This document shows, piece after piece, positions 1-50,721 of a stretch of 64,000 bases of DNA (positions are counted from its first letter, which is position 1; each line of letters begins with the position of its first letter). The notes under the pieces are model-generated. The model was not told the origin of the DNA. It saw nothing but the letters and a program-made list of their open reading frames with translations, and ran no database searches. The position numbers and the translations under genes are program-made. The DNA lies in the NCBI GenBank assembly GCA_022702935.2, contig JAKIML020000043.1, forward strand, positions 1-64,000, in the 5' to 3' direction. This stretch comes from Bacillota bacterium (lineage in GTDB: Bacteria > Bacillota > Clostridia > DSM-8532).

Positions 1-135
1 GCATTCCTGTTTGCCTTTGTAGTACTCCAAAGCGTGTTCTCCAATGCCGGAATGAAGGGCGGATTCAAGCTGTTACTGCCTGGTTGGATGAAGGGCAAGG
101 TCAAGATGGAGTTAAAAGAGACTGTGAAATCCTAG
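1..135 (+). CDS. C-terminal end of a gene cut by the window edge
   Basis: Frame 1 is open from the first base to a TAG stop and gives 44 residues. It begins with a hydrophobic stretch (AFLFAFVVLQSVF), which could be the end of a membrane helix, and ends with a basic, lysine-rich tail. A clear intrinsic terminator follows 18 bases later, which supports a real gene end here. The fragment is too short to assign to a family. It could be the C-terminus of a small membrane protein or of a permease. Confidence 0.6.
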   Translation, partial: AFLFAFVVLQSVFSNAGMKGGFKLLLPGWMKGKVKMELKETVKS

Positions 136-48533: not shown

Positions 48534-49226
48534 ATGAATATATATATTGATGAATCTGGAAGCATGACAAAGGAAGTTAATGAGTGGAAAAACAAGTTCT
48601 TTGTCATAACATTACTATTAACCGATAAGCCCGATATGCTGAAAAGAGCCTATAAACGTTTTGTAAGCAAACACTATACTGATCTGCAGAGCATGGATAC
48701 AAGTAATAAGATGTTTGACCAAGGTTCTTTTAAGGAATTAAAGGGCTATTGCTTTACTCCTCAAATGAAAAGAAAATTTGTTTATTTTTTTTGCCAAAAG
48801 AATAATTTTCGCTTGCTATTTATTAGGGTAAGTAACCTGAAAGCAAGTGACAATTTGTTTCGTAATAAGGCAAGAGCGTTTAATTATATACTCAAATTAG
48901 CTTTTGAATATTTACATAATCAAAAAATTCTATCTGATCGTGAATGGAACATTCAAATAGACGAAAGGAACGTTAAAAAAGATGCTAAATATCAATTACA
49001 AGATTTTCTGTTAACAGAGCTATCAACGGGTAAAAACATTGTTGATAATATATCTGTCCAGTATTATGATTCATGTAATAATAAACTAGTACAATTGGCA
49101 GATGTTTTCTCTAATATATTTTATTCAAATATCTTGACTTGTGGTGCGTTTAGTAAAGAAATTAGATATATGAAAGAAAATGGGTATACCATTAATATAT
49201 TTAAGTTTCCTCCTATCGGTAAATAA
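48534..49226 (+). CDS. DUF3800 domain protein
   Basis: The 230-residue product shows the DUF3800 landmarks in order: N-terminal IYIDESGS, FFVITLLL, ELKGYC (about residue 69), IQIDERNVKK (about 141), and VQLADVFSNIFY near the C-terminus. The Asp/Glu residues at these points suggest a metal-dependent nuclease-like (RNase H-type) active site, though no activity is proven for the family. Codons are A+T-rich compared with neighbours, which suggests horizontal gain. AAGGGAGA precedes ATG. Two copies of a structured RNA follow the stop codon. RNA motifs near DUF3800 genes have been reported in other bacteria, so gene and RNAs may be one system. Confidence 0.88.
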   Translation: MNIYIDESGSMTKEVNEWKNKFFVITLLLTDKPDMLKRAYKRFVSKHYTDLQSMDTSNKMFDQGSFKELKGYCFTPQMKRKFVYFFCQKNNFRLLFIRVSNLKASDNLFRNKARAFNYILKLAFEYLHNQKILSDREWNIQIDERNVKKDAKYQLQDFLLTELSTGKNIVDNISVQYYDSCNNKLVQLADVFSNIFYSNILTCGAFSKEIRYMKENGYTINIFKFPPIGK

Positions 49227-49254
49227 TTCACTTCTATCATGAATAATATAATAA

Positions 49255-49340
49255 TGTGGCATCAACAGTAAGTCCTATAGTATGCTTTTTCCTGAGTAAG
49301 CACTATGAGTTAGTGCCGTACGTAGGCGATTGATGCCACA
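49255..49340 (+). ncRNA. DUF3800-associated structured RNA, copy A
   Basis: The 86-base unit begins 29 bases after the DUF3800 stop. P1 is a perfect ten-base stem (49255-49264 with 49331-49340). Inside come ACAGTAAGTCCTA, a weak P3, hairpin P4 GCACTA/TAGTGC (49300-49305 with 49311-49316, loop TGAGT), then GTAGGCGAT. CCTA (49274-49277) can pair with TAGG (49323-49326) as P2. Copy B has the same constant blocks but different stem sequences that still pair. A TATAAT at 49247-49252 could give a separate start, but no -35 box is clear, so the RNA may be cut from the 3' UTR. Confidence 0.75.
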
Positions 49341-49364
49341 CATAACAATAAATGGATAATAATA

Positions 49365-49393
49365 TTGACTATACAGCAATATTTTAGTATACT
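49365..49393 (+). promoter_or_regulatory. Consensus promoter of structured RNA copy B
   Basis: TTGACT (49365-49370) and TATACT (49388-49393) are 17 bases apart, one of the best promoters in the window. The predicted start (about 49399-49401) coincides with the first base pair of P1 in copy B. Confidence 0.85.
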
Positions 49394-49398
49394 GTAAA

Positions 49399-49527
49399 TA
49401 CGTTAACAGTAAGTCCTAGTAGCATGCCATTGTCATGGTAAGTGATATATGTTATCATCGTGCCTAGGCAATTAACGTAACCTTAAGTAATGAGGAGTTA
49501 TCTCAAGTTATGAGATAACTCCTTTTT
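49399..49527 (+). ncRNA. DUF3800-associated structured RNA, copy B, with its own promoter and terminator
   Basis: P1 is TACGTTA/TAACGTA (49399-49405 with 49473-49479). ACAGTAAGTCCTA follows, then AGCATGC, P3 GCCAT/ATGGT with loop TGTC (49426-49430 with 49435-49439), GTAAG, P4 GTGATA/TATCAT with loop TATGT (49442-49447 with 49453-49458), and CTAGGCAAT. The spacing between AGCATGC and GTAAG is identical to copy A. The transcript starts at P1 and ends at an intrinsic terminator (49493-49527), so it would be an RNA of about 128 bases. No ORF lies within it. Confidence 0.8.
49493..49527 (+). terminator. Intrinsic terminator of structured RNA copy B
   Basis: A 13-base perfect stem, AGGAGTTATCTCA (49493-49505) with TGAGATAACTCCT (49511-49523), is followed by TTTT. 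Confidence 0.92.
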
Positions 49528-49734: not shown

Positions 49735-50721
49735 GTGAAAAAGCTCCGTTATCCGGTACTGGTGAGGCTTGCTCAATGGTTGATGCGAAAGTTCCCGTTC
49801 ACAACACCTTTCTTCAAACTCCTTAAGGCCATCTTTGGCAACAAGCTTGTAAAGTGCATGATCTCATTAGCATTTCCCATCATCTTCTTCATAGAGGGCA
49901 AAAGCGTTACAGTCATAACCGCAAAAGAAATCACCATGTTTTCAGTGACAGGCTTTTTCTTTGCCGTCTTAAACGCCCTGGTCCTTGCCGTGGAAAATTA
50001 TCGTGTCATATCGCTGCATCGTGCGGGATCCTATGCCTCCATTCTCAATAAAATCAACGTCATTGAAAATGATATTGCTTCGGAAATCGTTCATCAGAAC
50101 AAGAACATTAATAACAGCCAGAACTTCCTGCCGGGGAATCTTGCCGGGCTGGGCAAGGTCATTGAGAATAATAGCATAATTGACAAAATCGCATATATAA
50201 TATGTAAGAGTATCTTTGACTGGCTTAAAGAAGTCACAGAGGAGACATGCTTCAGGATAACGGTGTTTCAAAGATTTAAGGATGAACAGGGTGAGTTTGT
50301 TGAGCCCATTGCCCATGAGTTTGAAGACAATGGCTCGCCCAATGCCGAACGAATCCATCTGTGTGCGCCGGGAGAAAAGTATTATGTAAGGTTGCTTTTT
50401 GAGAGAAACATAAACACCATTGATGTTTTAGCCTCTCGAAAGGATATACAGGCCGTTAAGCTCCTCCCCGATGAGGATGCTTCCCAACTGGTGAGTGTAC
50501 CTATCAGGATTAATAAGCGAACCACCTTCCTCTTTCAGATTGCCTCTGATAAAAAAGATGTTTTGGGAAAGAATAAACATGATATCAAAAGTAGCTTTAA
50601 GTTACTTCTTCCTCTGGTAAACATGATTATCCCGTTCTGTTATGGGGATAAACTTATCAAGGACCTATGCGACAACTTTATTGTGCACTATCCTTCGAGA
50701 ACCACAAAGTCGAGAAAATGA
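49735..50721 (+). CDS. Two-helix membrane protein with a cytoplasmic GAF-like domain
   Basis: The 328-residue product has a basic amphipathic start, two helices close together (CMISLAFPIIFFIEGKSVTVI and FSVTGFFFAVLNALVLAV, about residues 41-90), a short coiled segment, and a C-terminal soluble domain of about 190 residues. That domain's strand/helix order (CFRITVFQRFKD...; YYVRLLFERN; ASQLVSVPIRINKRTTFLFQIASDK) resembles a GAF-type sensor domain. The start is GTG with GGGGGTG upstream. No close family is recognised. A small protein gene follows, and the pair sits next to the DUF3800/RNA locus. A role as membrane effector or sensor is inference. Confidence 0.7.
   Translation: MKKLRYPVLVRLAQWLMRKFPFTTPFFKLLKAIFGNKLVKCMISLAFPIIFFIEGKSVTVITAKEITMFSVTGFFFAVLNALVLAVENYRVISLHRAGSYASILNKINVIENDIASEIVHQNKNINNSQNFLPGNLAGLGKVIENNSIIDKIAYIICKSIFDWLKEVTEETCFRITVFQRFKDEQGEFVEPIAHEFEDNGSPNAERIHLCAPGEKYYVRLLFERNINTIDVLASRKDIQAVKLLPDEDASQLVSVPIRINKRTTFLFQIASDKKDVLGKNKHDIKSSFKLLLPLVNMIIPFCYGDKLIKDLCDNFIVHYPSRTTKSRK

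Follow-up and report, generated by a model that had tools for sequence, protein, structure and literature searches.

The window analysed here is a 64,000-nucleotide stretch of a Clostridia genome (Bacillota bacterium, assembly GCA_022702935.2, contig JAKIML020000043.1). It contains a DUF3800 gene which is followed on the plus strand by two tandem RNA units, A and B, and then by a strong terminator (Table 1). A previous sequence-only reading of the window had pointed out two tandem structured RNA units after a DUF3800 gene and these were found to be present as described. Unit A starts 28 bases after the 3' end of the gene (43 bases after the stop by motif position) and the promoter of copy B ends 3 bases from the start of the RNA model. 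Both units are selected RNA structures whose relatives are closely linked to DUF3800 genes, and the two copies are probably transcribed in different ways.

Table 1. Features of the DUF3800-RNA locus in window coordinates
Feature	Position	Strand	Description
DUF3800 gene	48534..49226	+	230 amino acids; predicted RNase-HII-like nuclease
RNA copy A	49255..49340	+	Probably in the 3' untranslated region of the DUF3800 mRNA
Copy B promoter	49365..49393	+	TTGACT (49365-49370), 17-base spacer, TATACT (49388-49393)
RNA copy B	49399..49479	+	P1, internal loop, P2, three-way junction with two hairpins
Copy B intrinsic terminator	49494..49527	+	GGAGTTATCTCA-AGTTA-TGAGATAACTCC followed by a T run

RNA structure and covariation

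Each unit is built on the same plan, in which an outer stem P1 is followed by an asymmetric internal loop, a stem P2 and a three-way junction. In the internal loop an invariant CAGUAAGU faces CRA (CAA in unit B), and the junction is made up of a short hairpin, UAAG and a 6-base-pair hairpin with a five-base loop. The closing stem of unit A, TGTGGCATCAA/TTGATGCCACA, pairs positions 49255-49265 with 49330-49340, and P1 of unit B, TACGTTAA/TTAACGTA, pairs 49399-49406 with 49472-49479. The pairing is as it had been read from the sequence, with lengths of 11 and 8 base pairs in place of the ten and seven proposed. The inner hairpins, GCACTA(TGAGT)TAGTGC in A and GTGATA(TATGT)TATCAT in B, are exactly those proposed, five-base loops included, and the internal spacing, which had been taken as identical, differs by one base.

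Single-sequence folding gave z-scores of -3.3 and -2.2 for units A and B respectively. RNAalifold predicted 25 pairs from a 43-sequence alignment (A2) and compensatory changes were observed in 20 of them. For a 24-pair structure, in which 20 pairs show double changes, 94.5% of cells pair, compared with 76.5% in shuffled controls, which ignore kinship, and 25-43% in slid controls, which keep it; double-change cells numbered 222 against 67 in the control. Two P2 pairs appeared to be invariant because the search patterns fixed GTCC and GGC, and C-G was indeed seen to change to U-A at these pairs in three loci that were found through the protein or the model (L218, L219 and L183; loci are given by L numbers and genomes by G numbers). 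In addition, G-U prevails at one pair and U-G at another, which fits an RNA made from the plus strand of the motif. The proposal of a selected RNA structure is thus borne out by covariation among relatives, and units A and B are real, structured RNA.

Relatives and copy number

A first pattern scan of viral contigs, with matches judged by eye and by folding, returned 84 matches of which 8 were true relatives, the rest being chance matches or marine phage genes. An improved pattern recovered further relatives in viral contigs as well as 73 genome loci, mostly real and nearly all in Clostridia. In total, about 70 relatives were found, chiefly in Clostridia and phages; the RNA accompanies DUF3800 in many bacteria of the gut and in their phages. 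A covariance model built without any window sequence (R2, whose E-values are rough) matched exactly units A (E 2.4e-15) and B (E 2e-18) within the window, and the 3.17-Mb genome holds two copies in all, both at this locus. A dispersed palindromic repeat, such as a repetitive extragenic palindrome (REP) or a miniature inverted-repeat transposable element (MITE), is ruled out by this copy number.

Of the 32 other genomes searched from the same family and order, none carries the RNA, and a scan of named phage and plasmid records with the RNA consensus gave no match. A protein search of these records returned only relatives at the 27-30% level, from Streptococcus satellite phages and Listeria. In viral contigs, the window DUF3800 protein as a lone query retrieved nothing and the DUF3800 alignment as query retrieved 17 loci.

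Transcription of the two copies

Promoters were searched with the strict pattern TTGA[CA]N-16..18-TANNNT ending near the RNA model start. Single or B copies carry one in 37 of 38 cases, always 1-3 bases from the model start, and a terminator lies 3' of the RNA in 32 of the 38; such copies are therefore best seen as small-RNA genes that start at P1. Neither element was observed in any of the 12 A copies, and the simplest reading of these is that they belong to the DUF3800 message. Both are also missing from the RNA-only copies of phages (0/8 for each), which places these inside phage transcripts; for example, L066 adjoins a portal gene and L089 and L096 lie 5' of terL. Chromosomal RNA-only copies have a promoter in 8 and a terminator in 7 of 11 cases.

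Unit A of the window follows this division, with no consensus -35 box and no terminator. Judging from these signals, copy B is probably a free small RNA of roughly 130 nucleotides and copy A probably forms part of the DUF3800 mRNA. Free RNAs of 86 and 128 bases had been anticipated by the sequence-only reading; this agrees with the promoter and terminator of B and is not supported for A. That only the second copy has its own promoter and terminator had been missed.

In all 14 tandem loci the closest relative of A is another A and that of B is another B. This rule also holds in L140, where A sits across the gene, and the DUF3800 proteins of tandem loci form one clade. The kinship of the copies across loci suggests an old, maintained two-RNA set and not a recent duplication. 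RNA and protein distances were found to be correlated (r=0.50, 0/5000 permutations), as would be expected for partners. We considered whether copy B might pair in antisense with the start region of DUF3800, as in type I systems, and ruled this out, as the longest perfect complement is 8 bases, not above that of shuffled sequence.

The DUF3800 protein

The protein matches PF12686 over residues 2-197 with 43 bits (gathering cut-off 21). Residues D6, E7, E68, D143 and D190 are invariant in 26 relatives, and D6 and E7 lie within the motif YIDESG. The adjacent D-E pair is reminiscent of the RNase HII motif DEAG. By sequence, the protein matches no solved structure. The AlphaFold2 model has a mean predicted local distance difference test score (pLDDT) of 92.6 and a predicted template modelling score (pTM) of 0.91, and its best solved structural match is RNase HII (1eke, E 1.4e-4, probability 1.00, TM about 0.5), followed by RNase H3. 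The nuclease-like acidic set noted earlier is consistent with this fold, and we predict an RNase-HII-like nuclease. Published work likewise predicts that DUF3800 adopts an RNase H fold, with its catalytic residues rearranged (PMC10910872). PADLOC has no model for the protein.

Linkage between the RNA and DUF3800

When 391 genomes of the class were searched with the RNA, it was found in seven, and a DUF3800 gene adjoins it in six of these. Starting from the protein in the same genomes (alignment A3), the RNA was observed to adjoin DUF3800 in 6/6 strong matches (E below 1e-40); two distant matches differ from this RNA-linked pattern. In viral contigs, all 13 DUF3800 members at 37% identity or more have the RNA. 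A toxin that is not kept without its antitoxin would be distributed as in these six genomes and 13 viral loci, and a cofactor would give the same. The linkage is therefore strong but asymmetric, since no cognate DUF3800 was seen without the RNA and the RNA is also found alone. The two outcomes that the sequence-only reading had named as speaking against it, a lack of covariation or DUF3800 linkage in homologues and a dispersed repeat, were both checked and excluded.

The RNA usually lies 3' of the DUF3800 gene on the same strand. In L218 it is 5' of the gene with a terminator between them, in L140 it is found on both sides and in L112 the two are convergent. Such a variable position with constant pairing fits a trans-acting product better than a cis element.

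In about 20 loci the RNA has no DUF3800 neighbour. Among 13 RNA-only genomes searched, seven lack any DUF3800 and five have distant subtypes only; several are metagenome assemblies in which the absence is not always certain, and in L164 a contig end probably separates the gene from the RNA. G369, one of these five and 100% complete, has the RNA and a distant type as its sole DUF3800. At a site linked to feoB, RNA B is kept and the adjoining slot varies among relatives, holding DUF3800 with RNA A in L111, L144, L152 and L130, other genes in L188 and a small hydrophobic toxin-like open reading frame in L135. Furthermore, DUF3800 is broken by deletion in L180, L163 and L127 with the RNA and its promoter intact, and both DUF3800 and the RNA are damaged in L128. 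This one-way dependence, together with RNA retained beside a broken DUF3800, is what is expected for an antitoxin.

Some details of these loci may be recorded. The small hydrophobic open reading frame, which resembles a type I toxin and takes the place of DUF3800 and RNA A beside the same RNA B, was located in L121 (6573-6728), L135 (6217-6369, minus strand) and L167 (1386-1634), and it has no Pfam match. The deletions in L180 (about 6521) and L163 (about 714) cut unrelated DUF3800 genes at about residue 93-94 and leave the RNA promoter untouched; that in L180 is flanked by a short TTGTGG microhomology. Neighbours of 28 DUF3800-RNA units (A4) include mad2/mad3/mad8 of MADS, a type IV restriction enzyme, a CARF-PDDEXK protein and phage terL/portal genes; the list was compiled for these units only, and no defence-gene enrichment is claimed from it. 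In the window, a membrane-protein gene of unknown function (49735-50721) lies 5' of argB/argC. A homologue with 63% identity occurs in one further genome of this genus, where glnS is its left neighbour; on the side of DUF3800, the window is variable.

Proposed function and alternatives

The locus may be a two-component system in which a DUF3800 nuclease is paired with a cognate structured RNA in two differentiated copies. We infer binding, inhibition, toxicity, autoregulation and a decoy role from the distribution and layout described above. The proposal we favour, at even confidence, is that the RNA binds the nuclease and keeps it inactive. Copy B would be made as a free small RNA from its strong promoter to its own terminator, fold into a compact three-way-junction body and hold the nuclease inactive, by analogy with the RNA antitoxins of type III toxin-antitoxin systems. 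Copy A, carried in the mRNA, would allow surplus nuclease to bind or cut its own message, and the RNA-only copies in phage transcripts could serve as decoys. An inhibitor is favoured over a cofactor or guide by the one-way dependence, by RNAs that outlive the nuclease gene and by the phage RNA-only copies, and the division between A and B suggests a free inhibitor together with a message-borne site of autoregulation.

Several points weigh against the inhibitor proposal. It draws on sequence and predicted structure, an RNA cofactor would account for the one-way dependence as well, and the RNA-only copies may be recent remnants. The decoy idea is based on 8 phage copies, and a TATAAT-like -10 near copy A would permit weak transcription of its own. 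Shared descent by itself can yield a Mantel correlation such as that between RNA and protein distances. The RNA is also mostly 3' of the gene, unlike in type III systems.

The RNA might instead be a required cofactor that positions the enzyme or its substrate in an active DUF3800 ribonucleoprotein nuclease. The lack of any cognate DUF3800 without the RNA would follow, the RNase-H-like fold is that of RuvC-type RNA-guided nucleases and DUF3800 accessory proteins are found beside Cas12a2 (PMC10910872) and other class 2 CRISPR loci (PMC12669027). However, most of the unpaired positions are conserved and the variable ones form short loops at most, which leaves no guide stretch, and a pure cofactor does not explain promoter-bearing RNA genes that persist without a cognate DUF3800. 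We therefore consider this role unlikely, though it deserves real weight. Lone chromosomal RNA genes that retain a promoter and terminator would also suit a small RNA that regulates a cellular target of its own and that DUF3800, given its predicted RNase fold, would mature or destroy; the position of copy A within a putative mRNA is compatible with this. Its patchy distribution (7/391 genomes) and phage carriage are unlike those of a core regulator, and copy B complements the start region of DUF3800 no better than shuffled sequence does, so that such a regulator seems rather improbable.

A defence or mobile module had been suggested for the locus. A defence role may be entertained as a hypothesis, and the patchy, phage-borne occurrence at unrelated sites agrees with mobility in a loose sense. 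In a stricter form, DUF3800 would be the transposase-like or homing nuclease of a mobile element and the units would be the element's DNA recognition ends. The placement of one copy on each side of the gene in L140 could be cited for this, as could the variation in the genes next to RNA B at one conserved site. There are only two copies in the genome, however, the flanking copies are diverged A and B paralogs and not identical ends, and the promoters and terminators are fitted to the RNA. The analysis found neither transposon-like ends nor a target-site pattern, nor a clean empty site; at the window, the genus relative G013 matches the right flank only, with another left neighbour and no clean insertion boundary. 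We judge such ends to be very unlikely. A cis-regulatory element or riboswitch for the neighbouring gene would fit copy A, probably in an untranslated region, and the copy 5' of the gene in L140. It is hardly credible for an RNA that is mostly 3' of the gene, convergent with it in L112 and, as a single or B copy, equipped with its own promoter and terminator.

For years, RNA motifs have been catalogued next to DUF3800 genes with no function assigned to them. The present analysis adds an RNA class that is absent from Rfam 15 and tied to DUF3800-I through a common core, and establishes that the nuclease is not found without the RNA, that the RNA persists alone, also in phages, and which copy is probably the free RNA. 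Should the RNA prove to be an inhibitor, DUF3800 would represent a new and widespread RNA-restrained nuclease system, and should it prove to be a cofactor, a new RNA-dependent nuclease; a protein-RNA pairing that was long unsolved is now directly testable. More tentatively, and with doubts of our own, we suggest that DUF3800 is an RNA-restrained toxin of a new kind, with an A/B split in one clade and phage decoys, and that this logic might extend to other DUF3800 motifs as one RNA superfamily.

Comparison with known RNAs and systems

An association of RNA motifs with DUF3800 genes is cited in PMC10910872. A complete Rfam 15 scan of the window units up to E 10 gave no family above threshold, and neither DUF3800-I (RF02969) nor motifs II-XI, whose models were not aligned individually, were matched. 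RF02969 does align in register to the junction core of L080, at 16.6 bits against a gathering cut-off of 44.2. In the reverse direction, a model made without DUF3800-I (R1) matched 4/4 strong DUF3800-I loci over core positions 19-72 with E 4e-4 to 4e-3, which upholds the earlier suggestion of a relation to the Rfam DUF3800 motifs. L215 (1316-1422, minus strand), a distant relative, is intermediate, with 35.1 bits for the new family model and 38.4 for DUF3800-I, below the cut-off.

The RNA shares P2, the small hairpin, the UAAG junction, the AUGU-loop hairpin and an adjoining DUF3800 gene with DUF3800-I, and differs from it in a 5' part with a long covarying P1 and the CAGUAAGU/CRA loop. DUF3800-I lies 5' of a different DUF3800 subtype with a terminator between them (L191, L192 and L194), whereas the new RNA is usually 3' of the gene, carries a promoter of its own and may come as a set of two copies. 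By covariance-model comparison the two cores are homologous. The plan of stem, hairpin, UAAG and hairpin recurs in two other types. In L201 (1262-1345, minus strand) the RNA lies right after the stop of another DUF3800 subtype and is weakly matched by R1 (17.5 bits). A further type, TTCGTAAGTTGCC...GGTAACC, occurs in Streptococcus satellite phages and one Clostridia chromosome (L230-L233, about 2236-2350; L214, 2180-2285, minus strand) and has no Rfam match. We read the DUF3800 RNAs as one probable superfamily with subtype-specific outer parts. The window RNA, covarying and consistently beside DUF3800, belongs to the DUF3800-associated RNAs in the broad sense and is a new subtype of this known, functionally unsolved kind.

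The DUF3800 proteins of Cas12a2 and type VI-F loci share the domain, the RNase H fold and a tie to RNA systems (PMC10910872, PMC12669027). The window protein differs from them as a stand-alone protein of 230 amino acids with no TPR domain, and no CRISPR array or cas gene was identified beside its gene. An RNA-guided mobile nuclease of the IscB/HEARO or TnpB kind was rejected, as the RNA has no guide-length variable unpaired segment and ends at its own terminator.

The abiF motif (RF03085), found in clostridial prophages, is likewise a structured RNA that adjoins the gene of a putative RNase and is present in two copies. Its protein (Abi_2/AbiF, of Cas13-like ancestry) and RNA are unrelated to those described here and, unlike in the window, both copies lie in one transcript 5' of the gene. 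In Clostridioides difficile the abiF RNA RCd22 was proven to be an RNA antitoxin, which binds toxic AbiF directly and neutralises it both in cis and in trans (PMC12373285), a precedent for the inhibitor proposal. Type III toxin-antitoxin systems (ToxIN, CptIN and TenpIN) also combine a protein with a structured RNA, and their order of RNA, terminator and gene is that of L218 and DUF3800-I. They differ in that the window RNA is an 85-nucleotide body and not an array of 34-50-nucleotide repeats, and in that the DUF3800 model is RNase-H-like (RNase HII 1eke) and not a ToxN-like endoribonuclease. Phages are reported to carry RNA mimics of the ToxIN antitoxin (PMC3475682).
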